NCBI GenBank assembly: GCA_025353165.1
Contig: JANXRE010000171.1
Location: forward strand, 1 to 64,000
From: Acidobacteriota bacterium
GTDB taxonomy: Bacteria > Acidobacteriota > Terriglobia > Bryobacterales > Bryobacteraceae
Reading direction: 5' to 3'
Length of the DNA: 64,000 nt
Under the pieces are notes generated by a model that did not search any database, was not told the DNA's origin, and saw only the letters and a list, made by a program, of their open reading frames with translations. The translations under genes were made by a program, and so were the position numbers. Of this stretch, positions 11,858 to 25,175 are shown piece after piece; the stretch's first letter is position 1, and every line of letters begins with the position of its first letter.

Positions 11858-12652
11858 GTGCGCATTTGTTTTGTAGTTTCGGGTTTGTTCCTGGCCCTCC
11901 TCTGCCTCGCCGCTTACGCGCAGAAAGAGTTTCGCGAGTACCCGGGAGTGGAGTACGAGAACTTCCCGCTGCCGCCCGACTATCGGGACAAAACCGAGTT
12001 CACGCGAGCCCGGCTCATTTATCCATCGGTTCGTTACGGCTGGCGCCGGTTCAACAGTTGGACCATCGATTACCCCCGCTCCGACCGGCACCTTCTGGCA
12101 GGCATCCGGCGTCTCACTCGGATCGACACGCGCTCCGTCGAACAGCCGGTGAACCCCGACGACGGCGACGATATCTTCAACTGGCCGTTCCTATACGCAG
12201 TGGAAGTGGGCCACTGGGATCTCACCGACGCACAGTGCGGGAAGATCCGCGAGTTTCTTCTGCGCGGCGGCTTCCTCATGGTGGACGATTTCCACGGTAC
12301 GCAGGAGTGGGACGTATTCATCGCCAGCATGAGCCGCATTTTGCCGGAGCATCCGATTGTGGAATTGGACAACAAGGATCCGATCTTTCACACGCTGTAC
12401 GACCTTGACGAACGCTTCCAGGTTGCGGGCGCGCAGTACTTCGATTCCGGCAAGACCTACGAAAAAGATGGGTACGAGCCGCGGTGGCGCGGCATCTACG
12501 ACGACAAGGGCCGGGTGATGGTGGCAATCTGCCATAACATGGATCTCGGCGATGCGTGGGAGTGGTCTGACGATCCGAGATATCCCGAGAAGTGGGCATC
12601 GCTGGCATACCGCATCGGAGTAAACTATCTCATCTACGACATGACCCACTAG
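11858..12652 (+). CDS. DUF4159 domain protein (first gene of MoxR/VWA operon)
   Basis: 264 residues with signal peptide (MRICFVVSGLFLALLCLAAYAQ). Start GTG at 11858 with a CTGAGG SD about 9 nt upstream. The body matches DUF4159: an opening FTRARLIYPSVRYGWRRF, YPRSDRHLLAGIRRLT, PFLYAVEVGHWDLTDAQCG, FLLRGGFLMVDDFHGTQEW and a late MVAICHNMDLGDAWEW. DUF4159 adopts a glutamine-amidotransferase-like fold, usually encoded with MoxR, DUF58 and VWA genes, and no activity is established. Here it opens such an operon, 10 nt before the VWA membrane protein. Likely periplasmic. Confidence 0.88.
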   Translation: MRICFVVSGLFLALLCLAAYAQKEFREYPGVEYENFPLPPDYRDKTEFTRARLIYPSVRYGWRRFNSWTIDYPRSDRHLLAGIRRLTRIDTRSVEQPVNPDDGDDIFNWPFLYAVEVGHWDLTDAQCGKIREFLLRGGFLMVDDFHGTQEWDVFIASMSRILPEHPIVELDNKDPIFHTLYDLDERFQVAGAQYFDSGKTYEKDGYEPRWRGIYDDKGRVMVAICHNMDLGDAWEWSDDPRYPEKWASLAYRIGVNYLIYDMTH

Positions 12653-12662
12653 GGTCGCTAGT

Positions 12663-14915
12663 ATGTTTGAATTCCTTTTCAAATATCCATGGACCGCATT
12701 TTCGAAGGGGAGTCTCGTGTGGCTCGGCTTCGGACCCGTCTGGGTCTTGCCGCTGGTCATCGTCCTCGGCGCGGCGATTCTCGGGTGGCTGCTATGGCGC
12801 AGGCGGTTCGGAACGGGAGCGGTGGCTCGCACCGCGGCCGTATGGGCTTTGCAGACGGCCTTTTTCGCCCTGCTTCTTGCCATGCTCTGGCAGCCTGCGC
12901 TCAGCGTCGCCACGCTGAAGCCCCAACAGAATATTGTCGCTGTTGTCGTCGACGATTCCCGGAGCATGGCGATCCGCGACGGCGGGAGTATGCGTCGGGA
13001 TGAGGCCCGCCACGCGCTGGATCGCCTGCTGCCGTCTCTAAGCCAGCGGTTTCAAGTGCGCCTGTACCGCCTCGGGCAATCGGCCGAACGAGTCCAGAGC
13101 CCGCGAGCGTTCCAGGCCACCGCCCCCGCCACGCACATCGGCGACGGGCTGCGCCAGATAATCGCGGACAGCGCGACATTGCCGGTCGGCGCGGTCGTGC
13201 TCTTGTCCGATGGAGCGGACAACTCGGGCGGCATCGACCTGGACACTCTTTCGGAGTTGCGCGCGAAACAGATTCCGGTCCAAACCGTCGGGTTCGGGAG
13301 CGAACGTCTCGACCGCGACATCGAACTGCTCGAAGTCCAAACACCGCAGTCCTCGCTTGCCGGGTCTCGTGTAGCCGCGCAGATTTCGTTCCGGCAGCGC
13401 GGCTTCGCCGGGCAGAAAGCAAAGATCGTCGTCCGGGACGGCGCCAATATCCTCGCGATGCGTGAGATCACGTTGCCGGCCGACGGCGCGCAGCAGTCGG
13501 AACCGTTGTTGTTTCAGAGCGGGAATCCTGGCGTGCGAAACCTCGCCGCTTCGATCGACCCGCTTCCCGGAGAAGAGAATCCCGCAAACAACCGGATGAC
13601 TCGCGTTATGGAAGTGCGGGGTGACAAGCCCCGCATCCTGTACGTCGAAGGGGAACCCCGCTGGGAATTCAAGTTCATCCGCCGTGCCATGGATGAGGAC
13701 CACAACGTTCAACTCGTAACCCTCCTCCGCGCAACGCAGAACAAGAACTACCGGCAAGGCATCGCCGATCCGAAGGAGCTGGAGGAAGGGTTCCCGGCGC
13801 GGCGTGAAGATTTGTTCGGTTACAGCGCGCTCGTCCTGGGCAGTCTCGAGGCCAACTGGCTTACGCCCGCGCAGCACGAAATGATCCGCGAGTTCGTCGA
13901 CCGCCGAGGCGGCGGCCTGCTCTTTTTAGCCGGACGGTTTGGCTTGGCGGAGGGCGGCTACGCAAAGGAGCCGTTCACCGACCTTCTCCCGGTCACGCTG
14001 CCCAGCCACAGAAACACGTACCATATCGCCCCCGCATACGTCGATCTCACTATGGCCGGCCGCGATAGCCTGATCTGCCGCCTGGTAGACGATCCGCAAG
14101 TCAATGCCGAGCGGTGGAAGAAGCTGCCGTACATGATGAACTGGCAGGAACCCGGCACTCCGAAAGCGGGCGCGGCTGTGTTGGCGGAATCGATTCCCGG
14201 GGGTGCGCGAAACCGGTATCCGCTGCTCGTCACGCAGAACTTCGGGCGCGGCCGGACGTCGGTGTTCGCAAGTTCCGGAAGCTGGCGCTGGCAGATGCTC
14301 CAACCCGTGGAGGACAAGAGCCACGAAACCTTCTGGCGGCAGATGATGCGCTGGCTGGTCACCGGCACGCCAGGGCCGGTTGTACTCACGACTCCCTCCC
14401 CGATTGTCGCCGACGACTCCCGGGTGAAACTGCGCGCCGAAGTTCGCGACAAGACCTACACTCCGGCGCCGGACGCACAGGTGGAAGCTCGCGTAATTGG
14501 ACCGGACGGCTCCAGCGGGACGGTCACGATGAGGCCGGATCCGGCCGAACCGGGAATTTACGCGGCCGAGTACAGCGCTCCCGTGGCCGGCTCCTATATC
14601 GCGGAAGCGGTGGCGCGGCGCGGTAAGGATGAACTCGGACGCGGGGTGGCGGCATTCCGTCGCGAAGACGGTGTCGCTGAGGAGTTTCACACGGAACAGA
14701 ACCGCGAACTGTTGGAGAGGTTGGCGACACAGACGGGCGGGCGTTACTACCGTCCGGCCGACGCGGCGCGCATCACGGACGAGATCACTTACTCGCCAGC
14801 CGGCATCTCGGTCCGGCAGACGTTGGATCTGTGGAATATGCCGGTGCTGTTTCTGCTGGCGCTTGCGTTGCGGAGCGGTGAATGGCTGTTGCGGCGGCGG
14901 TGGGGGCTGATATGA
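12663..14915 (+). CDS. Membrane protein with VWA domain and GATase-like region
   Basis: 750 residues. Two N-terminal transmembrane helices (about 21-45 and 58-78) lead into a VWA domain whose MIDAS motif is D97-D-S99-R-S101 (VVVDDSRSM), with further VWA features GAVVLLSDGADNSGG. An Ig-like segment and a class-I glutamine amidotransferase-like domain (about 310-520: KPRILYVEGEPRWEFKFIRRA, GYSALVLGSLEANWL, GGGLLFLAGRFGLAEG) follow, then beta domains and a final helix (about 725-745). Most of the protein should face the periplasm. Families like this sit beside MoxR ATPases, which are thought to act on VWA partners. Translation is coupled to the next gene (ATGA at 14912). Partner inferred, fold visible. 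Confidence 0.85.
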   Translation: MFEFLFKYPWTAFSKGSLVWLGFGPVWVLPLVIVLGAAILGWLLWRRRFGTGAVARTAAVWALQTAFFALLLAMLWQPALSVATLKPQQNIVAVVVDDSRSMAIRDGGSMRRDEARHALDRLLPSLSQRFQVRLYRLGQSAERVQSPRAFQATAPATHIGDGLRQIIADSATLPVGAVVLLSDGADNSGGIDLDTLSELRAKQIPVQTVGFGSERLDRDIELLEVQTPQSSLAGSRVAAQISFRQRGFAGQKAKIVVRDGANILAMREITLPADGAQQSEPLLFQSGNPGVRNLAASIDPLPGEENPANNRMTRVMEVRGDKPRILYVEGEPRWEFKFIRRAMDEDHNVQLVTLLRATQNKNYRQGIADPKELEEGFPARREDLFGYSALVLGSLEANWLTPAQHEMIREFVDRRGGGLLFLAGRFGLAEGGYAKEPFTDLLPVTLPSHRNTYHIAPAYVDLTMAGRDSLICRLVDDPQVNAERWKKLPYMMNWQEPGTPKAGAAVLAESIPGGARNRYPLLVTQNFGRGRTSVFASSGSWRWQMLQPVEDKSHETFWRQMMRWLVTGTPGPVVLTTPSPIVADDSRVKLRAEVRDKTYTPAPDAQVEARVIGPDGSSGTVTMRPDPAEPGIYAAEYSAPVAGSYIAEAVARRGKDELGRGVAAFRREDGVAEEFHTEQNRELLERLATQTGGRYYRPADAARITDEITYSPAGISVRQTLDLWNMPVLFLLALALRSGEWLLRRRWGLI

Positions 14916-15823
14916 AAGCGCTGACGCTCCTGCTGGCCGTTGCCTCGCTCGCGCCCGCGACCACGTTTTACGTGACCGTGGCCGGCCTCGGTGGAGAGGA
15001 CGAATTCCAGCAGCGCTTCGACAACTGGGCGAAGGAGATCGACAAACTGGTCCGCGCATCAAAAGATGCGCAGGTTGAAACGCTGTTCGGTCCCGCGGCA
15101 ACGAAGGCCAGGGTCGAGGCCGCGTTGCGTTCCGTTTCGGCGAAGGCGCAGCGTGACGATGCTCTGGTGCTGATGCTGATCGGACACGGGACGTTCGATG
15201 GCTACGACTACAGGCTGAACCTTCCGGGGCCCGATATCACGGCCGGAGAACTCTCGGCGCTGTTGGACCGCATTCCGGCATCCCGGCAGTTGATCGTCAA
15301 TATGACGAGTTGCAGCGGTGGCTCTATGAAGGCATTCCAGGGGGCCGGCCGCGTGGTGGTGACCGCGACGAAAACCGGCACCGAGCGGAACGCGACGATA
15401 TTTGCTCGCTACTGGGTGGAAGCGCTCCGCGATCCCGCCGCCGACTCGGATAAGAACGAGACGATTAGCGCGCTGGAAGCCTATCGGTACGCCGAACAAA
15501 AAACGTCGCAGTTTTACGAAACACAGAAGCGGCTGGCGACGGAGCACGCGGTTCTGGAAGACACCGGCAAGGGGGACGGTGTCCGCCAACCCTCGCCGCA
15601 GAACGGGCAGGGGCTCGCCGCCGCGCAGTTTGCGGTAGTGCGAATGGCCGGCGCTCAGAACATTTCCAACGATCCGGCGCTTCTGAATAAGCGGGAAGAA
15701 TTGGAAGCGAGGATCGACAAGTTGAAGTACGAGAAAGCCTCGCTGAACGAGGGCGAGTATCGCAAACAATTGCGGGCCCTCCTCACCGCGCTGGCGAAGG
15801 TACAAGCGGAGTTGGACAAATGA
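14912..15823 (+). CDS. Caspase/legumain-like (clan CD) secreted peptidase
   Basis: 303 residues from ATG 14912, which overlaps the previous stop (ATGA); a start at 14882 lies inside the preceding transmembrane helix and is rejected. After a signal peptide (MKALTLLLAVASLAPA), the core shows a clan CD layout: hydrophobic strand then catalytic His92 (LMLIGHGTFDGYDYRLNL), and a second strand then Cys134 (LIVNMTSCSGGSMKAF), followed by VVVTATKTG. The C-terminal 60 residues are helical with charged repeats (coiled coil). Similar to peptidase C13 proteins of bacteria. The gene lies inside a MoxR/VWA operon, so it could process envelope proteins of that machine; the target is unknown. Confidence 0.75.
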   Translation: MKALTLLLAVASLAPATTFYVTVAGLGGEDEFQQRFDNWAKEIDKLVRASKDAQVETLFGPAATKARVEAALRSVSAKAQRDDALVLMLIGHGTFDGYDYRLNLPGPDITAGELSALLDRIPASRQLIVNMTSCSGGSMKAFQGAGRVVVTATKTGTERNATIFARYWVEALRDPAADSDKNETISALEAYRYAEQKTSQFYETQKRLATEHAVLEDTGKGDGVRQPSPQNGQGLAAAQFAVVRMAGAQNISNDPALLNKREELEARIDKLKYEKASLNEGEYRKQLRALLTALAKVQAELDK

Positions 15824-17985
15824 GGTGGGTCGCGCTCGCTGTGGCCCTGCCACTCGCTGCCCTCGCGCAGGCGCCCCAGGCATGCCGTGCGCTTTACCGG
15901 CAGGGCAAGCTGGCCGAAGCGCGAGAGTGCAACACCCGCCTGGCGAAGTCGGAAGACCCGTTCTTGCGCGCCCAAGGACTGTGGGGCATACGAGATTATC
16001 AGGGCGCGAACGCGGCGTTTCGCGAAGCGGCATTGGCCCGGCCTGCCGATCCCGGCGTCAAGGTGCTGTGGGGCCGCATGTACCTCGAGCATTTTCAGCC
16101 AGCGGACGCCATGGCGCTGTTCCAGGAGGCTTTGAAAGCGAAGCCCGATTACGCTCCTGCGTTACTGGGCATGGCGCTGGCGGCCTCCGAGGGCTACGAG
16201 ATCCGGGCGGTGGAACTCGCGGAGTCCGCGCTGAAATCCGATCCGAGGCTGGCGGAAGCGCGAGCCCTGCTTGCCAGACTCGCCCTGGAGGACAACGACC
16301 GAAAGCGCGCCGGCGACGAAGCGGATAAGGCGCTGGACAGCCTCGAAGCGCTCTCTATCCGCGCCACCATGGACTGGTTGGACGACAAGGGCGATACCGA
16401 GTGGATCGCGCGCATCCTCAAGATCGATCCGGCTTACGGCGAGGCCTACTCGACCGGCGCGCGGCTTCTGGTTCTGAATCGCCGCTACGACGAGGGAATC
16501 CACCTTTACCGCAGGGCGCTGGAACTCAACCCGGAGCTCTCCGATGCGCGGGCGGAACTCGGCGTTCAGCTCATGCGAATGGGCGGCGAAATCGAGGCCC
16601 GCAAGCAACTCGAATCCTGCTACAAGAAAGGCTATCGCGGTCCCGCTGTCGTCAACTCGCTGCGGCTGCTCGATTCCTACAAGAACTTCGAGACGTTCCG
16701 CACGCCCACCACAGTTCTCCGCCTGCAAAAGAAAGAAGCCGCCTTGCTGCGCCCGTACTTCCAGGAGCAGATGGATCGAGCGATGGCGGCATACGAGAAG
16801 AAGTACAAGCTGAAACTGACGAAGCCCGTGCAGGTCGAGGTCTACCCCGATCACGAGGATTTCGCCGTGCGCACGATGGGCATGCCGGGACTGGGAATTC
16901 TCGGCGTGACCTTCGGCAATGTCGTTGCGATGGATTCGCCATCGGGCCGGAAGCCCGGCGATTTCCACTGGGCGAGCACGCTGTGGCACGAACTAAGCCA
17001 CGTGTACGTTCTGACCGCGACCAACCATCGCGTACCAAGGTGGTTCACGGAAGGCATGGCTGTTCACGAGGAAACGGCAGCCTCGCCCGAGTGGGGCGAT
17101 CGCGTCTCCCCCGAGGTCATTCAGGCGATCAAAGATCGGAAATTATTGCCGGTCGCGGAATTGGATCGCGGCTTCATTCGCCCCAGTTACCCGGCCCAGG
17201 TCATCGTTTCGTATTTTCAGGCGGGAAGAATCTGCGATTACGTGAACCAGCGCTGGGGCTTCGATAAACTTCTCGCCATGATGCGGGAGTTTGGCGAGCG
17301 CAAGACAACTCCCGAAGTGGTCCAACATCAGCTGGCAATGACTCCGGACCAGTTCGACCAAGACTTCCTCGCGTGGCTCGGGCAGCAAACGAAAACTCAG
17401 GTCGCCGGATTCGACGATTGGCGCAAGGGTCTGCGCGGCGTGGCCGAAGCCGCCCGCGCGAAGAAGTGGGAGCAGGTAATAGCCGAAGGGAAAGCCATTC
17501 GCGACCTGTACCCCGACTATGTCGAGGCCGGCAGCGTCTATGAGTTTCTTTCGCAAGCGTACGTCGCGCAAGGCGACAAAGCGAAGGCGATGTCCGAACT
17601 GGACCGCTACACCCATGCCGGCGGGCGCAATCCTGCTACGCTGAAGCAATTCGCCGCCTGGCAGGCTGAATCAGGCCGCCAGCGGGAAGCCGCGCAGGTG
17701 CTCGCGCGCCTGAACCTGATCGCGCCCAATGACGAGGACCTGCATCGAAAACTCGGAGCCTTGTTGCAGGAAAGCGGCGACCACGCAGGAGCCGCTCGCG
17801 AGTGGCAGTCGGTGGTGGCCATGAAACCGGCCGACACGGCCGGGGCAAATTTTGAACTGGCCAAAGCATTACAGGCGGCCGGGAAGAGAGACGACGCGCG
17901 GGATGCCGTCCTGAACGCGCTCGAGGCCGCGCCGGGTTACAAGCCCGCGCAGAGACTGCTGCTCGAACTGGACGGAAAGGAATAG
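15820..17985 (+). CDS. TPR protein with gluzincin metallopeptidase domain
   Basis: 721 residues. Signal peptide (MRWVALAVALPLAALAQAPQA), then TPR helices over about 20-300, a peptidase-MA-like domain over about 310-520, and further TPRs to the end. The zinc site is H390-E-L-S-H394 (WHELSHVYVLTATNH) with third ligand Glu411 in WFTEGMAVHEE; the 16-residue spacing fits gluzincins. The start ATG overlaps the upstream stop, and MoxR starts 4 nt after its stop. Predicted periplasmic, possibly trimming or chaperoning proteins with the adjacent VWA partners. No propeptide seen. Confidence 0.82.
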   Translation: MRWVALAVALPLAALAQAPQACRALYRQGKLAEARECNTRLAKSEDPFLRAQGLWGIRDYQGANAAFREAALARPADPGVKVLWGRMYLEHFQPADAMALFQEALKAKPDYAPALLGMALAASEGYEIRAVELAESALKSDPRLAEARALLARLALEDNDRKRAGDEADKALDSLEALSIRATMDWLDDKGDTEWIARILKIDPAYGEAYSTGARLLVLNRRYDEGIHLYRRALELNPELSDARAELGVQLMRMGGEIEARKQLESCYKKGYRGPAVVNSLRLLDSYKNFETFRTPTTVLRLQKKEAALLRPYFQEQMDRAMAAYEKKYKLKLTKPVQVEVYPDHEDFAVRTMGMPGLGILGVTFGNVVAMDSPSGRKPGDFHWASTLWHELSHVYVLTATNHRVPRWFTEGMAVHEETAASPEWGDRVSPEVIQAIKDRKLLPVAELDRGFIRPSYPAQVIVSYFQAGRICDYVNQRWGFDKLLAMMREFGERKTTPEVVQHQLAMTPDQFDQDFLAWLGQQTKTQVAGFDDWRKGLRGVAEAARAKKWEQVIAEGKAIRDLYPDYVEAGSVYEFLSQAYVAQGDKAKAMSELDRYTHAGGRNPATLKQFAAWQAESGRQREAAQVLARLNLIAPNDEDLHRKLGALLQESGDHAGAAREWQSVVAMKPADTAGANFELAKALQAAGKRDDARDAVLNALEAAPGYKPAQRLLLELDGKE

Positions 17986-17989
17986 TAAC

Positions 17990-19012
17990 TTGTCGACAGT
18001 TGTAGCGTCCATCGATTCCGCCGAGCTTCGCACTCGCATCCAGCGGTTCCAGCAAGTGCAGGAAGAAATCGTGCGGCAGGTCCGAAAGGTCATCGTCGGC
18101 CAGGATGAAGTGCTGGAGCAGGTCCTGATCGCGTTGTTCGTGGGCGGGCACTGCCTGATCACCGGAATGCCGGGCACCGCGAAAACGCTGCTGGTCCGCA
18201 CCATGGCCGAGACGCTCGGACTCGAATTCCGGCGCATTCAATTCACTCCGGACCTCATGCCAACCGACATCACGGGCACGGACATCATCGAAGAAGACAT
18301 GACCACCGGCCACCGCAAGTGGACGTTCGTGCCCGGCCCGATCTTCGCGAATGTCCTTCTGGCCGACGAGATCAATCGCACGCCGCCGAAGACGCAATCG
18401 GCGCTGCTCGAAGCGATGCAGGAACTCTCCTGCACGGTGCGCGGCAACATGTACCGCATCAAGCCGCCTTTCTTTGTTCTCGCGACGCAGAACCCGATCG
18501 AACTGGAGGGAACGTACCCACTGCCCGAAGCGCAGCTCGATCGATTTCTCTTCAACACGCTGCTCGACTACCTCAGCGTGGAAGACGAGATGAAGGTGGT
18601 CTCGATGACTACCACGACGGCGCAGGTGAAGGTGGATCCGGTCACGAATGCGGAAGAGATTATCAGCTTCCAGGAACTCGTCCGCATGGTTCCGATCGCG
18701 GAGAGCGTGATGCGGTACGCCGTGGATCTCGTGCGGGCCACGCGCAGCAGCGATCCCAGCGCGCCGGACTTTATCGGGAAGTACGTGAACTTCGGGGGTA
18801 GCGTGCGCGCGACGCTCTTCCTGGTCCTGGCGGCGAAAGCGCGCGCTCTCTCTCGCCATCGATACCACGTAACGTATGAGGACGTCGCCGCGCTGGCACG
18901 ACCGGTCCTGCGGCATCGTGTCCTGGTCAATTTTCACGCAGAGAGCGAACGGCTTTCGTCCGACGACATCCTGAAGCGGCTGCTGGAGGCGAGGCCCGCG
19001 CCGAAGGGATAG
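17990..19012 (+). CDS. MoxR-family AAA+ ATPase
   Basis: 340 residues, cytosolic. Walker A GMPGTAKT (59-66), Walker B VLLADEINR (about 121-129), sensor 1 VLATQNPIELEGTYPLPEAQLDRF and a C-terminal lid domain, all MoxR hallmarks at the usual length. The start is TTG at 17990, with GGAAAGGA about 8 nt upstream. MoxR proteins act as chaperones/insertases for VWA-containing partners; here the next gene is DUF58 and VWA proteins lie on both sides. The most confidently assigned member of the operon. Confidence 0.95.
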   Translation: MSTVVASIDSAELRTRIQRFQQVQEEIVRQVRKVIVGQDEVLEQVLIALFVGGHCLITGMPGTAKTLLVRTMAETLGLEFRRIQFTPDLMPTDITGTDIIEEDMTTGHRKWTFVPGPIFANVLLADEINRTPPKTQSALLEAMQELSCTVRGNMYRIKPPFFVLATQNPIELEGTYPLPEAQLDRFLFNTLLDYLSVEDEMKVVSMTTTTAQVKVDPVTNAEEIISFQELVRMVPIAESVMRYAVDLVRATRSSDPSAPDFIGKYVNFGGSVRATLFLVLAAKARALSRHRYHVTYEDVAALARPVLRHRVLVNFHAESERLSSDDILKRLLEARPAPKG

Positions 19013-19017
19013 TAGCC

Positions 19018-19905
19018 ATGGAGCAGCGGTTCCTCAATCCGTCCGTGCTCGCCGGGATCTCGGGTCTCGAGCTCGTGGCTCGCACAGTCGTCGACGGATT
19101 CATCGCGGGACTCCACCGGTCCCCCGACTTCGGGTTCAGTCAGGAGTTCGCGGAGTACCGCGCCTACAGCGCCGGCGAGGATTTGCGGCACATCGATTGG
19201 AACGTGTTCGCGCGCACCGAGCGCATGTACCTGAAGCGCTACCACGGCGAGACGAACACTCTGATTACCGTGCTGCTGGACGCCAGCAAATCGATGTCGT
19301 ACTCATCGCACCGCGTTCCCAAAATCGATTTTGCCCGCTATCTGGCTGCCTCGTTCCTGTATCTCTCCATCCAGCAGCGCGACGCCGGAGGACTGATCGT
19401 TTTCGACGACGAGATTCGCGATTACGTCCGGCCCTCCGGCCGGCAAGGCCAGTTGCAGCGGCTGCTGTATGCGATTGACAAGGCGGAGCCGGGGCAGCGG
19501 ACGGATTTTGCCAAGCCGTTCCTGCACTTTCAGCAGTTCCTGCACCGGCGCGGAATCGTGGTGGTGATCTCGGATTTTTACGGAGACCCGGATGCCCTGG
19601 TTTCCTCCATGGCGCCGCTGCGAGCGCGTGGCAACGAACTCGCGCTGTTCCATGTCCTCGATCCGGAAGAAGTCCGTCCGCGATTTCGAGACCCCGTTGT
19701 GCTGGTGGACCTGGAGACGGAAGACACGATCGAAGTTTCGCCGGACTACGCCCGGCACGAATACCGGGAGCGCGTGGATGCGCATATCGCGGCCCTGAAG
19801 ACCAAGTCCCAAGCGGCGGGCATGGATTACTTTCTGGTGACGACCGACCGTCCGCTGGACGCTGCGCTGCGCGAATACCTTTTCATACGGCAGGGGAGGA
19901 TGTAG
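19018..19905 (+). CDS. DUF58 domain protein
   Basis: 295 residues. Typical DUF58 signature AGEDLRHIDWNVFARTERMYLKRY (about 52-75), then a VWA-like fold with MIDAS D88-A-S90-K-S92 (LLDASKSMSY) and ISDFYGDPDALV. No signal peptide, so probably cytosolic, at the membrane face. SD AAGGGA precedes the ATG. The next gene follows with no gap. DUF58 and MoxR together are a standard pair; the exact role is unknown. Confidence 0.92.
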   Translation: MEQRFLNPSVLAGISGLELVARTVVDGFIAGLHRSPDFGFSQEFAEYRAYSAGEDLRHIDWNVFARTERMYLKRYHGETNTLITVLLDASKSMSYSSHRVPKIDFARYLAASFLYLSIQQRDAGGLIVFDDEIRDYVRPSGRQGQLQRLLYAIDKAEPGQRTDFAKPFLHFQQFLHRRGIVVVISDFYGDPDALVSSMAPLRARGNELALFHVLDPEEVRPRFRDPVVLVDLETEDTIEVSPDYARHEYRERVDAHIAALKTKSQAAGMDYFLVTTDRPLDAALREYLFIRQGRM

Positions 19906-21927
19906 ATGGGACTGCTCGCTCCCTGGTTCCTCGCCGGACTGGCCGCCCTCGGGCTGCCCATCTACCTGCACCTTCTTCGCAGGCACAAGGTGGAACCAAA
20001 GCCGTTCGCCTCACTCATGTTCTTCGAGCGCCGGATACAAAGCTCGGTGAAGCACCGGCGGCTGAGGTTTTACGCGCTATTGGCGCTCCGCCTCGCGATG
20101 CTGGCGCTGCTTGCTTTCTTGTTCTCGCAACCGTTCCTGTACCGACCTGCAACGGCGAGATCCAGCAATAAACTGGTGGTTATTGCGATCGACCGGTCGT
20201 TCAGCATGCGTGCTTCGGGCCTCCTGCAGGAGGCAAGGCGGCAGGCGCTTTCCGCGGTCGATTCGATCCGCGGCGGCGACACCGGGCAAGTGGTCGCGCT
20301 CGGCAGCCGCGTCGAGATCCTGACGGAACCGGTCGACGATCGGGGCGCGCTCAAAGCCGCAGTGAATTCCATCGTCCCCGGTGACGATGCGAGTTCCTAC
20401 GCCGAGTTCTCGCGATTTCTGCGCGGCCTGCCGCCGGCGCTCAAGATGCCCGTGGAGGCTCACTTGTTTACGGACGCGCAGCAGAGTGGAATGCCCGCGG
20501 CATTTGCGGACCTGGCTCTTGGCGATCGTACGAAGCTGGTGGTTCATCCTGTCGGACGCTTCGCGCCGAATTGGGCGGTGGAGACCGTAGCGGCGCCTCG
20601 TGCGGTGCATGGGTCGGGCAAGGTGCGGGTGACTGCAATAGTGGCCGGCTACGGGACCGAGGCCGCGCGTCGAACGGCATCGCTGGTGGTCAACGGTCGC
20701 GTCATCGAGTCGAAGACGGTTGAGGTGCCTGCCGGCGGCCGGGCCCAGGTTGAGTTCGCCGGGTTCGAGCCGTCCTATGGTTTCAACCGCGGCGAGGTTC
20801 GGATGGAGCCGGGCGATTCGCTGCGCGAGGACGATCGTTATCGCTTCACTACCGAGCGCACCGAAACGCGCAAGGTGTTGTTTGTTCGTGACGTGAAGCA
20901 GACCCCGGGATACTTTCGCGCGGCGCTCCAGGCGGCAGCGGGCAGCGAATACGATCTTGACGCCGTCACGGTGGAGCAGTCGGGGAATTTGGATCCCGCG
21001 AAATACTCGTTCATTGTCCTGGCGGACGCCGCGACACTGGCCGCCGATTTCGAACGCCGCCTGTCTAAGTACCTTCAGAGCGGTGGAGGGCTGCTGATAG
21101 AGGTTGGCCCCGCGTGCGTGGCGAGACAGCGAGTTCCCGTCGTGGAAATGAACGTGGCGGAGTCGCGTTACACGCCCCACGAAGGCGACCGCTTCCAGAC
21201 TGCCGCGCGCCTGGATGCTTCGCACCCGGCCATTCGCGATGCCGCCGCGCTCGACGGCGTGCGGTTCTACGAGAGCGCTCGTGTCGACGCCGGAAAATCC
21301 CGCGTGCTCGCGAGGCTCAGCGACGAATCGCCGTTGCTGATGGAAAAGACCGTCGGCGAGGGCCGAGCGATCGTGCTGGCGTCAACGCTCGACAACGTGG
21401 CTAACGATCTGCCGGTGCATGCGTTGTTCGTCCCGTTTGTAGAACGCATCGCCGCGTACTTGTCCGGACCCGTGAATGGCCCGTCGAGCACTCAGGTGGG
21501 TTCGACCATTGTGCTCCGGACCGACGTAGACGGGCGGGCGTCCACTGGAGTGCTCGATCCGGAGGGGAGGCGCGCCCTCGATCTGAAGGAATCGGCCGGC
21601 ATGGCCGCCTTCACGTTCCCCCGCGAGGGCTATTGGGAAACCCAGAGTGCCGGCGGCCGGCGCGAACTCGTCGCCGTGAATTCGGACCGCAAGGAATCGG
21701 ACCTGGCGCGCGTCCCCAGCGAGACGCTCGCGTTGTGGACCGAATCCGGGCAACCGGGCAACCCGCTTCAGCCGGCCGCGCCGGGAGAACCGGGACGAGC
21801 GCCGCTGTGGCAATACGTTCTCCTGATCCTGGTGGTCCTGGCAGCCGCGGAGTCGCTCGTGGCGAACCGGTTCCAGGGCTCGTCCGAACCGAAAGAACAG
21901 TTGCTGACAAAACGGGAGGCGGCATGA
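19906..21927 (+). CDS. BatA-like membrane VWA protein
   Basis: 673 residues. The N-terminus is the BatA/aerotolerance-type double transmembrane segment (helix at 5-23, basic linker LRRHKVEPKPFASLMFFERR, helix at about 56-76). A VWA domain follows with MIDAS D96-R-S98-F-S100, then beta regions and a GATase-like segment (SFIVLADAATLAADFERRL, GGGLLIEVG), with a last helix near 630-650. Begins directly after DUF58, whose SD-like GGGGAGGA lies just upstream. Bat proteins are linked to MoxR in many phyla; stress tolerance is reported for some. Most of this one is periplasmic. Confidence 0.85.
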   Translation: MGLLAPWFLAGLAALGLPIYLHLLRRHKVEPKPFASLMFFERRIQSSVKHRRLRFYALLALRLAMLALLAFLFSQPFLYRPATARSSNKLVVIAIDRSFSMRASGLLQEARRQALSAVDSIRGGDTGQVVALGSRVEILTEPVDDRGALKAAVNSIVPGDDASSYAEFSRFLRGLPPALKMPVEAHLFTDAQQSGMPAAFADLALGDRTKLVVHPVGRFAPNWAVETVAAPRAVHGSGKVRVTAIVAGYGTEAARRTASLVVNGRVIESKTVEVPAGGRAQVEFAGFEPSYGFNRGEVRMEPGDSLREDDRYRFTTERTETRKVLFVRDVKQTPGYFRAALQAAAGSEYDLDAVTVEQSGNLDPAKYSFIVLADAATLAADFERRLSKYLQSGGGLLIEVGPACVARQRVPVVEMNVAESRYTPHEGDRFQTAARLDASHPAIRDAAALDGVRFYESARVDAGKSRVLARLSDESPLLMEKTVGEGRAIVLASTLDNVANDLPVHALFVPFVERIAAYLSGPVNGPSSTQVGSTIVLRTDVDGRASTGVLDPEGRRALDLKESAGMAAFTFPREGYWETQSAGGRRELVAVNSDRKESDLARVPSETLALWTESGQPGNPLQPAAPGEPGRAPLWQYVLLILVVLAAAESLVANRFQGSSEPKEQLLTKREAA

Positions 21928-24900
21928 ACAACCTGGATGCGTTGAACGAATATCTACGCAAAATCGAGCGCGCCCTGGGGTTCTTCGCGTTGTCGCGCGG
22001 CGCTGCCGCCACCGCGGGTACGGCGCTTGGGGCAACCGTGGCGCTCGCGTTCCTGATTCACCGGAACGCATTCGCACCCGAGGTGCTGCTGCTGGCACGG
22101 TTCGCGCTGTTCCTGTCCGTTGGGGCGGCGGCAGCCTTCGGGGGAGTGATCCCCATGCTGGCGATGAATCGTCGCCGGGCTGCGCGCCGGACCGAGCAGG
22201 TGTTCCCGGAATTCGAACAGCGCCTTCTGACGATAGCGGAACGCGGCGACCCGGGATCGCACGATCCGTTCCTCGCACTTGTCGCCGGTGAAGCTGCGGA
22301 GGTCGCGCGGAAAGCGAGGCCGTCGAGCGTGGCATCGCGGAGCCGGCTGGCAGCCTTCGCAACATCGGCCGCCGGAGCGTTGGCCATTCTCCTCTGGCTC
22401 ATCGTGGCCGGCCCCGGATATCTCGGCGAAGGAGCATCGCTGCTGTGGGCGGGGACGCCGAAGACCGGCTCGGCTTACTTGCACGGGATCAAAGTGGCGC
22501 CGGGGAACGCGACGGTGCGCCGCAAGTCCGACCAGTGGGTAATTGCCAGCCTGGAAGGTTTCGATACACCCGATGTTAAGCTCCTGGCGCGTTTCCGCGG
22601 CGGCGCAAAATGGGAAGAGACACCGATGTCGCCTCGTGCCGGTGCGGACGGATATGAGTTCCTCTTTGCCGCGCTGCCGGACGATGTGGAATACTATGTC
22701 GCTGCGCGCGGCGTCCGTTCCGGCACTTACAAACTCTCAGTAAGAGACTTACCCGGAATCCGAAAACTCAAAGTAACTTACCACTATCCGACGTGGACCG
22801 GACTTAGTGACAAGACCGAAGAACCCGGCGGTGACTTACGAGCCATCGAGGGCACTATCGCCTATCTTCAAATCGAGTTCGACAAGCCCGTTCGCGGCGC
22901 GGCCCTGGCTTTCGATAACGGAAGCAGCATCAAGCTCGACGGCGATGGCGCTCAGCGCCGCGTGCAGGTGCCGATCGAGCGGGACGGCATGTACCACGTC
23001 GCTTCGCTCGAGGGCGATCAGCCCGCCCGGCTCTCCGAGGATTACTTCATCGAGGCGCGAAAAGACGCGGCCCCCATGGTCAAGATCGACCGCCCCGGCC
23101 GCGATGCGCGCGTAAGCCCGATCGAAGAAGTGCCTGTGGTTGTGGAGGCCGGGGACGACTTCGCTCTCCATGAGGTCGCGCTGCACTATAGCGTGAATGG
23201 CGGACCCGAGCGCACCATCGATCTGCTCCCGCACGCGGGAGCGAAGCAGGCTACGGGCAAGACGCTACTCTATCTCGAAGACCTGAAGTTATCCCCCGGA
23301 GACATCGTTGGACTCTACGCAATCGCTCGCGACGCCCATAATATTGCGCAAACCGACATGTTCTTCCTCGAAGCCCAGCCATACGACCGCGAGTACTCAC
23401 AAAGCCAGGCAGCGGGAGGGCAGGGTGGCGGCATGGGCGGAGACGAGGAGCGCCTCGCGGCCCGGCAGAAAGAGGTGATTGCCGCCACCTGGAATCAGAT
23501 TCGGGACGAGCGCCGCGCCAAGAACGCCGCCGACGACGCGCGTTTCCTTTCTGAAGTGCAGAAGAGACTCCGAGATCAGGCACAGTCGGCGGCCGAGCGG
23601 TCGAAGAGCCGTGAACTCGCCGGGACGAACGACACGTTTCAGCTCCTGGTCCGCGAGCTCGAACAGGCCGCGAAGGAGATGTCGGGCGCGGCGGACAAAC
23701 TGAAGGCGCAGGCCTTGCGCGATGCGCTGCCGTCGGAGCAGCGCGCGCTTCAACATCTCATGCGCGCTGAGATGGCGATTAAGAACATCCAGGTCGCCTT
23801 CGGAAATTCCCAGGGAGGGCAGGGAAGCGGCGCGGTGCGCGATCTCGAGAACCTCTTCGATCTCGAACTCGACACCGAGAAGAACCAGTACGAGACCGGC
23901 CAACAACTGAATGCGGCGAATCAACGCGAGCAGGACATTGATGAAGCCTTGCAGCGCCTGGAACAACTCGCGCGGCGGCAGCAGGAGATCGCCGAGCGGC
24001 AGAAACAGAAGCAGCAGGCCTTCGAGCAGCGCTGGCAGCAGGAGCAATTAAGGCGCGAGGCGGAAGAACTGCGCCAGAAGATGGAGCAATTGACGCGGCA
24101 AAGCGCGGCTTCCTCGCAATCGTCCGGGCAGCAATCCTCGCAGTCATCCTCCGGTGGCTCGCCGGGCGATCGCACCATGCGGCAGGCGTTCGACCGGCTG
24201 TCTCGCGCGACCGACGACATGCGCCAGGCCGCGTCGCAACCGGACCAGCGTGAAGCCGGAGCCCGGCGAGCGGCGGAGCGTCTTCAGGAGGCCCAGGACC
24301 TTCTGCGCGGACTTCGGCGTAACCAGACTTCGTCGCAGCTCTCGGATCTCGGCGACCGGTCGGACAAGCTGTTCGAGCAGCAGCGGCAGTTTACCGAGAA
24401 GATGCGGCAGGCTTTCAGCGGGCAACCGGCGCAGGCTGCCGCGGGGCAAGGCGGCAAGGAGCAGAACCAGCGGTTGGCGGCGGAGAAAGAGCAGATGGCT
24501 CGAGACCTGGACCGTCTCCAATCGGATGTACAGCGCGCCGCGCGCGCACTTCAGGGAACCGAGCCTCGCGCCTCCGGTAAGCTTCGCGAGGGGCTCAGCG
24601 AAGTCCAGCAGAACGAGGTCCAGCTCCGCATGAAATATGCCGCGAATTGGATACGAAACGGTCGTGGCGGGTCCCTGACTTCCGGCGAGGCCGTCACCAC
24701 CGCAGGCCTGGGAAAGCTGCGTGACAGCGTCCGAGACGCCCAGCAGATTGTGGAGAAGGCGGGCGACAAGAAAGGACCCGCCGGCGGTAGGGACGAGCAG
24801 GCGCTAGAACGAATCGAGCAGGCCCGGGAAGCGCTGCAACGCCCCGGGCGTGACGCCACCGGCGGCGCAATCCGGCAGGCGGTCCGCGATCTGACGCAGC

Positions 24901-25175
24901 TTCGCCAGAAATTCGCGCCGGGTGGAATCAGCCGCGGTGTCGCCGACGCGATTCGCCAACTGGACAGCATCCAGAAACTCCCGCTCGCCGGGCCGGAAAT
25001 GGATGCGCGCATCCAGCGCGAAGTTTTGCCCAGCCTGGAGCAGATCGAGCTTCAGCTTCGGCGCAAGGTGGAGGACTCGAAAGCCGGCGCGCGCAACCCC
25101 GCGCCCGAGCGCATCCCGTCAGGCTACGCGGACCGCGTGGCCGACTATTTCCGCCGCCTCAGCCGGGCGCAGTAA
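21924..25175 (+). CDS. Large Q-rich coiled-coil membrane protein, DUF4175-like
   Basis: 1083 residues from ATG 21924 (ATGA overlap with the BatA stop); an open frame continues upstream to 21633 but lies in the BatA gene. Three N-terminal helices (about 25-50, 52-80, 138-160) are followed by Ig-like beta domains (about 170-480), a Gly-rich hinge (GGQGGGMGGDEER), then about 550 residues of Gln/Glu/Arg-rich coiled coil (repeats like LEQLARRQQEIAERQKQKQQ) with a Ser/Gln linker. This layout is similar to alphaproteobacterial DUF4175/TIGR02302 proteins, which also close MoxR-DUF58-VWA operons. Probably a structural periplasmic arm of the machine. Composition makes homology below the helices uncertain. 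Confidence 0.72.
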   Translation: MNNLDALNEYLRKIERALGFFALSRGAAATAGTALGATVALAFLIHRNAFAPEVLLLARFALFLSVGAAAAFGGVIPMLAMNRRRAARRTEQVFPEFEQRLLTIAERGDPGSHDPFLALVAGEAAEVARKARPSSVASRSRLAAFATSAAGALAILLWLIVAGPGYLGEGASLLWAGTPKTGSAYLHGIKVAPGNATVRRKSDQWVIASLEGFDTPDVKLLARFRGGAKWEETPMSPRAGADGYEFLFAALPDDVEYYVAARGVRSGTYKLSVRDLPGIRKLKVTYHYPTWTGLSDKTEEPGGDLRAIEGTIAYLQIEFDKPVRGAALAFDNGSSIKLDGDGAQRRVQVPIERDGMYHVASLEGDQPARLSEDYFIEARKDAAPMVKIDRPGRDARVSPIEEVPVVVEAGDDFALHEVALHYSVNGGPERTIDLLPHAGAKQATGKTLLYLEDLKLSPGDIVGLYAIARDAHNIAQTDMFFLEAQPYDREYSQSQAAGGQGGGMGGDEERLAARQKEVIAATWNQIRDERRAKNAADDARFLSEVQKRLRDQAQSAAERSKSRELAGTNDTFQLLVRELEQAAKEMSGAADKLKAQALRDALPSEQRALQHLMRAEMAIKNIQVAFGNSQGGQGSGAVRDLENLFDLELDTEKNQYETGQQLNAANQREQDIDEALQRLEQLARRQQEIAERQKQKQQAFEQRWQQEQLRREAEELRQKMEQLTRQSAASSQSSGQQSSQSSSGGSPGDRTMRQAFDRLSRATDDMRQAASQPDQREAGARRAAERLQEAQDLLRGLRRNQTSSQLSDLGDRSDKLFEQQRQFTEKMRQAFSGQPAQAAAGQGGKEQNQRLAAEKEQMARDLDRLQSDVQRAARALQGTEPRASGKLREGLSEVQQNEVQLRMKYAANWIRNGRGGSLTSGEAVTTAGLGKLRDSVRDAQQIVEKAGDKKGPAGGRDEQALERIEQAREALQRPGRDATGGAIRQAVRDLTQLRQKFAPGGISRGVADAIRQLDSIQKLPLAGPEMDARIQREVLPSLEQIELQLRRKVEDSKAGARNPAPERIPSGYADRVADYFRRLSRAQ

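Follow-up and report, generated by a model that had tools for sequence, protein, structure and literature searches.

Operons of the Bat/MoxR type are widespread, and the roles of their exported parts are poorly understood. MoxR and Bat operons have been linked to stress resistance elsewhere (PMC11834572). Loss of the catalytic cysteine, often to serine, is already known in prokaryotic caspase homologues (PMC3501461, PMC6426788). The pseudo-orthocaspases described in this way belong to the p20/C14 type, have mostly changed the histidine too (YS, YA, FS, YN) and come to 90% from Alphaproteobacteria and Cyanobacteria, and forms that retain the histidine (His-Ala) are also mentioned (PMC6426788). 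Here we analyse a 64,000-nucleotide stretch from the genome of a soil bacterium of the Acidobacteriota (contig JANXRE010000171.1, positions 1 to 64,000 of the forward strand; hereafter the window) which carries, at 14912-15823, the gene for a protein with a predicted caspase/legumain fold. Its family looks like a conserved pseudo-peptidase within a conserved operon, having replaced the catalytic cysteine and kept the active-site histidine. No description of this pseudo-caspase family or operon was found in the open-licence literature, nor any paper on DUF4159, the domain of one of the neighbouring proteins. The features of the gene are as follows.

14912..15823, plus strand: gene of the pseudo-caspase/legumain-fold protein, a 303-residue open reading frame (ORF) that runs from an ATG at 14912 to a TGA at 15821-15823
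14912..14956, plus strand: probable signal peptide, residues 1-15, with APA preceding the mature start (from the sequence and a crude test)
15185..15187, plus strand: His92 within GHG, invariant in the alignment (129/129)
15308..15310, plus strand: Ser133, predicted clan CD nucleophile position (register tests, some dissenting); Ser in 115/129, Cys in none
15311..15313, plus strand: Cys134, called catalytic in a preliminary description of this DNA; not conserved in the alignment (10/129)
15443..15478, plus strand: EF-hand-like loop, residues 178-189, with Asp178 and Glu189 each present in 129/129
15674..15817, plus strand: two-helix tail, residues 255-302, from the AlphaFold2 model

The AlphaFold2 model, computed with a 60-row alignment, has a pLDDT of 89.9 and a pTM of 0.80. 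Its top matches in the PDB are legumains, with VIA Z values of 18-21, followed by metacaspases, GPI8 and caspases. For most catalytic-domain rows, superposition on the legumains covers about 190-205 residues with an rmsd of 2.3-2.8; the value rises to as much as 8.9 when proenzyme tails form part of the alignment. The modelled fold is that of clan CD (caspase-hemoglobinase, legumain/caspase type), in agreement with the caspase-like assignment of the preliminary description. Among the Pfam families, PF01650 (Peptidase C13) is the best match of the family, being found at E<=0.01 in 31 members of an 81-row family alignment (A2; 71 rows without and 10 with Cys134). The window protein itself scores 21.0 bits with this profile, under the gathering cut-off of 22.8, which is passed by four relatives (L131, L134, L136 and L138). 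PF00656 (C14 p20) matches 4 of the 81 members at E<=0.01 and gave no match to the window protein at E<=1, and a phmmer search of PDB sequences with a far relative returned nothing relevant. Apart from the operon, the genome to which the window belongs (G000) encodes a strong C14 caspase-domain match of 139.9 bits (C60:35638-36309, L145).

A species-genome scan that took the window protein as its query gave 60 loci, whose titles are nearly all Acidobacteriota, and a search of 297 Acidobacteriota genomes with an alignment of 60 rows (A1) matched 92 at E<=1e-3 and 85 at E<=1e-30, the latter number being counted from the search listing. The main alignment comprises 129 rows (127 distinct sequences), that is, the window protein and 128 relatives, and is divided into 69 near rows, the window included, and 60 far rows, to which certain far genomes contribute two; 69 of the relatives (29 plus 40) were drawn from the matches of the Acidobacteriota genome search and represent part of its strong places only. 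A1 includes the chimeric L061 and excludes L028, which is present among the 129, and a further alignment (A3) was made without L055 and L058. L061 was removed from the 129, as its ORF is common to the family in the tail only: at L061:2540-3463 a TPR protein is fused in frame to the last ~40 residues of the family tail, which may be an assembly chimera or a shared tail.

The histidine that clan CD carries in an HG turn following strand 3 is present in all 129 sequences as His92, while the cysteine that should follow strand 4 is absent in the register favoured below, residue 133 being Ser in 115, Thr in 5, Glu in 3, Pro, Asn and Ala in 2 each, and Cys in none. The next residue, 134, is Ala in 76, Ser in 37, Cys in 10, Gly in 3, Val in 2 and Thr in 1 (Ala 38, Ser 18, Cys 3 and Gly 1 among the 60 rows of A1). 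Under either register, at least 119 of the 129 members have no Cys at the nucleophile site. The two motifs on which the preliminary description was built, GHG (residues 91-93) and SCSGG (within TSCSGG, residues 132-137), do have the strand context ascribed to them: in the model, the histidine closes strand 84-91, strand 125-132 stops right before residue 133, and a helix begins at 135. The catalytic dyad of His92 and Cys134 read from them is not supported, since Cys134 occurs in only 10 of the 129 and lies one residue past the position that superposes on the catalytic Cys of caspases and of the yeast metacaspase.

The register at the nucleophile site was examined with structures and with profiles. 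A separate model of residues 16-137 has a pLDDT of 94.5, with low confidence (44) for the last two residues, and in its numbering residue 118 is Ser133. The VIA output gives the first and last aligned residues, so that the register presumes gap-free final few residues. The end pairs are 119 on 277 for Yca1 (C276A in the entry title), 122 on 289 for caspase-1 (C285A in the title) and 122 on 258 for caspase-11 (C254A in the title), each of which puts Ser133 on the Cys. For apo-caspase-6 the end pair is 118 on 163, and Cys163, which we take to be the catalytic Cys of this enzyme, would again receive Ser133. This comparison comprised 50 rows, 46 of them caspases, and the rows for metacaspase-4 (122 on 229) and GSU0716 (122 on 139) were left unused. 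At the profile level, hhalign aligned the 71 A2 rows without Cys134 to 15 genuine Acidobacteriota clan CD proteins ungapped, with Ser133 on the Cys, in three out of three modes. In the PF01650 profile, position 163 is where the Gly of DACxSG falls in 4/4 genuine fragments, and that of SxSG in 3/6 family fragments, the other three ending earlier, two of which belong to Cys134 carriers. Because the superposition, which was made with the window protein and thus with a sequence that has Cys134, agrees with the ungapped alignment, we conclude that residue 133 is the predicted nucleophile site, on which most but not all of the register tests agree.

The gene is under purifying selection. Among 724 pairs kept, the 8 closest (dS up to 0.52) have dN/dS values of 0.053-0.096, and therefore the gene is not decaying; the values over all 724 pairs (median 0.30, maximum 0.76) were unused, most pairs being distant or near saturation, and rows L061, L055, L058 and L030 were excluded from this test. 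The EF-hand-like loop fits the pattern D-x-[DNS]-x-[DNSG]-x-x-hydrophobic-x-x-x-[DE] in 119 of the 129 sequences, and the remaining 10 carry Thr at position 8. Shuffling the window protein 20000 times produced a comparable, somewhat stricter pattern in 36 cases. The loop was also considered as a feature unique to the family, which was rejected given that 3 of the 15 genuine Acidobacteriota clan CD proteins have a loop like it, so that it may be inherited.

At the N-terminus the model shows a helix at residues 2-11. In a crude export test on 56 near rows (the 60 rows of A1 minus the four incomplete or chimeric ones, L061, L055, L058 and L030), a hydrophobic N-terminal 9-mer was found in 56/56 and a small-x-small site ahead of the mature start in 42/56. 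The pseudo-caspase protein is probably exported (periplasmic), as had been proposed, and its tail is indeed helical, with two helices at 255-277 and 280-302 where a coiled coil had been suggested. The export of a clan CD protein is less unusual than was claimed, given that 46 of 671 prokaryotic homologues surveyed have the domain after a single N-terminal helix, possibly a signal peptide (PMC3501461).

The gene lies in a run of eight genes on the same strand, the other seven of which are given below.

11858..12652, plus strand: DUF4159 protein, GTG start as listed (Pfam)
12663..14915, plus strand: GATase1_like protein with a weak VWA match; its stop overlaps the pseudo-caspase start (ATGA, 14912-14915)
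15820..17985, plus strand: TPR plus Peptidase MA-like protein (TPR-MA) bearing an HExxH motif, HELSH; start overlapping the pseudo-caspase stop (ATGA, 15820-15823)
17990..19012, plus strand: MoxR AAA+ ATPase, TTG start as listed (Pfam)
19018..19905, plus strand: DUF58 protein (Pfam)
19906..21927, plus strand: BatA-type membrane VWA protein (Pfam, NCBIfam)
21924..25175, plus strand: DUF4175-like large protein, 20.9 bits, under the Pfam cut-off of 27.3

The start of the DUF4175-like gene is an in-frame ATG overlapping the BatA stop, which is our choice, and the search queries used 21909-25172. MoxR, DUF58 and the BatA-type VWA protein follow one another in a single run (17990-21927), which is the mark of a Bat-type operon. 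Further AAA_3 (MoxR-type) ATPase matches are present at three other places of the genome, on C132, C187 and C189, one of them weak. The stop-start coupling noted for the window is borne out by the ATGA overlaps at both ends of the gene and recurs in relatives. At plus-strand loci, the upstream junction shows an in-frame NTGA overlap in 52 of 64 comparisons for the near group and 22 of 31 for the far group, and the downstream junction shows an NTGA overlap in 54 of 63 and 22 of 34, respectively. The upstream partner had been described as a membrane VWA protein. The coupling stands, but the VWA assignment is weak (17.9 bits, cut-off 27) and it is GATase1_like that is clear (39.7 bits, cut-off 27).

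A same-strand GATase/VWA gene accompanies the family in 66 of 68 near loci, the exceptions (L030 and L058) having a match that starts at the contig edge, and the TPR-MA gene is present in all 68. In the 41 near loci with at least 4.5 kb on each side, MoxR, DUF58 and BatA were found in 41/41, the DUF4175-like gene in 39 and DUF4159 in 30. At the far loci a GATase/VWA gene was found in 55 of 60, and MoxR or the DUF4175-like gene in 23 of the 26 with long flanks. Neighbours were detected by single-sequence search, which can overlook divergent copies. The TPR-MA protein of the window (15820-17985) contains the metallopeptidase-like motif HELSH...WFTEG, which is kept in near relatives and lost or undetected in many far ones. 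Since HExxH is present in 67/72 near ORF hits (16/30 far), a plausible metallopeptidase adjoins the pseudo-peptidase in near relatives.

Beyond Acidobacteriota, coverage consisted of the one species-genome scan with the window protein, which reaches close relatives only, and of plasmid, phage and viral records. A megaplasmid of Gemmatirosa kalamazoonensis (Gemmatimonadota) carries the complete gene cluster, including a relative with 38% identity across 81% of the query, and therefore the system is not limited to one phylum. In this whole operon (L178, NZ_CP007129.1 737172-757870) the relative has no Cys at 133 or at 134. Two further loci titled Acidimicrobiia (L014) and Bordetella parapertussis (L044) bear an Acidobacteriota-type operon and are probably mislabelled metagenome bins. 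Phage records gave no match to relatives and none was confirmed in viral contigs; a BFVD structure search returned 12 matches at E<=0.001, mainly caspase/metacaspase proteins of large DNA viruses.

The reading that we favour, with a little better than even confidence, is that of a probably exported subunit of a Bat/MoxR-type envelope complex, which would not be a cysteine peptidase but would serve in recognition, in regulation or as a scaffold. According to this proposal, with the catalytic cysteine replaced family-wide, mostly by serine (Ser133), and the active-site His and GHG turn (near-)invariant, the former active-site region would bind a peptide or protein tail with the help of the histidine. 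Ca2+ on the EF-hand-like loop would fix the bound tail in this region. The two-helix tail may dock the pseudo-peptidase to one of the two proteins whose genes flank its own, the GATase/VWA protein or the TPR-metallopeptidase, and MoxR would drive assembly or remodelling of the envelope complex.

Several points weigh against this proposal and are taken here with the alternatives to which they belong. Export, Ca2+ binding, the recognition or scaffold role and the partnership with neighbours are what we infer from the computed results, and the neighbours vary more at far loci, where TPR-MA was found in 30 of 60 and MoxR in 17 of the 26 with long flanks. Furthermore, Ser or Thr at residue 133 in 120 of the 129 sequences next to a His92 that is invariant across deep divergence could mean a serine-type enzyme. 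In such a hydrolase on the clan CD fold, perhaps an amidase, esterase or transpeptidase, Ser133 would be the nucleophile with His92. However, 9 of the 129 hold Glu, Pro, Asn or Ala at residue 133, Ser is the commonest substitute of Cys in prokaryotic homologues, with 43% of the substitutions (PMC3501461), and Cys-substituted forms are presumed inactive (PMC6426788). We consider a serine hydrolase unlikely, although it fares best among the alternatives. Its fuller version, in which a change from Cys-His to Ser-His turned a widespread clan CD protein with an EF-hand-like loop into an active serine hydrolase or transpeptidase that supplies a Bat-type MoxR complex with its exported enzyme, seems to us slightly less likely again. 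Were the protein a serine enzyme, a natural serine branch would be added to clan CD, whose members are described as cysteine peptidases.

The view of the preliminary description, an active exported cysteine peptidase that would use His92 together with Cys134, if only in the window species and the other Cys134 carriers, ranks below both. Cys134 occurs in the window protein and in six of seven members of one distant clade, so that these members may have an active cysteine. hhalign pairs Cys134 with the catalytic Cys when the full 81-row A2 is aligned to the genuine clan CD proteins, with two one-residue gaps, and when the 10 Cys134 rows are used alone, with one gap in the strand. In the carrier L088, the PF01650 stretch ends ahead of the motif and a gap-free extension would place Cys134 on the Cys column. 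The idea of Cys134 as the nucleophile was nonetheless rejected on the register tests, with dissent from these two hhalign runs: the partial model of the window protein sets Cys134 one residue beyond the nucleophile site, 119 of the 129 sequences have no Cys134, including the five rows nearest the window protein by tree path (L002, L004, L007, L012 and L003, all Ala), and every residue seen in column 134 is small (Ala, Ser, Cys, Gly, Val and Thr). On a quick tree, the Cys134 label requires five parsimony changes, four of them forced by well-supported branches. In the distant clade, six members (L072, L073, L076, L077, L079 and L088) keep Cys134 with a variable residue 133 (Ser, Thr or Asn); a one-residue shift of the reactive group is possible there.

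Least probable of all, and by our estimate very improbable, is a role in biological conflict (immunity), with the protein as the pseudo-caspase of a MoxR-vWA ternary system. In favour of this are the co-occurrence of MoxR, VWA and caspase-like parts, the roughly 70% of effector-position caspase domains that are inactive in the described systems (PMC7159879) and a bpMoxR match of the window MoxR (41.9 bits), but the gene set is constant among near relatives, the MoxR fits AAA_3 far better (201 bits), DUF58 and BatA are Bat-type marks ('DUF58' has 0 occurrences in PMC7159879), and a PADLOC search gave no match for the pseudo-caspase protein at E<=0.01, MoxR alone matching among the 8 operon proteins (mad8, 6.7e-7; TRIP13, 0.0042); no search aimed at a VMAP protein was made.

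If the proposed recognition or scaffold subunit is correct, an invariant active-site histidine beside a TPR-metallopeptidase gives a concrete handle on the function of Bat/MoxR operons. The case also points to a catalytic Cys whose loss has become fixed throughout a family outside Alphaproteobacteria and Cyanobacteria, and it cautions that GHG plus SCSGG is not to be taken as an active dyad.

In comparison with known systems, the prokaryotic pseudo-orthocaspases (Asplund-Samuelsson 2012, PMC3501461; Klemencic 2019, PMC6426788), defined by the loss of one or both catalytic residues, share with this family the caspase fold, a lost catalytic residue and a common change of Cys to Ser; here Cys is lost at 133 and His is kept without exception, C13 is the closest family and the phylum is mainly Acidobacteriota ('acidobacteria' has 0 occurrences in PMC6426788). 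The VMAP and MoxR-vWA ternary conflict systems likewise combine MoxR-vWA with caspase-like, often inactive, domains (PMC7159879), whereas the window has the Bat-type set (DUF58, BatA) and a separate small, probably exported protein. At E<=1 the window protein has a single NCBIfam match, to the EACC1-associated caspase (NF047832), but the 21.8 bits are far under the model cut-off of 140. Peptidase family C13 (legumain, GPI8; PF01650) offers the closest modelled fold and the best Pfam match, from which this family differs by having no Cys at 133 in any of the 129 sequences, by the two-helix tail, by the MoxR/Bat-type operon and by the score of the window protein under the cut-off. Finally, the Bat (Bacteroides aerotolerance) operons bring together MoxR, DUF58, a BatA-type VWA protein and TPR proteins (PMC11834572), as does the window, while the operon described here adds the DUF4159 protein, the GATase1_like protein, the TPR-metallopeptidase and the pseudo-peptidase.

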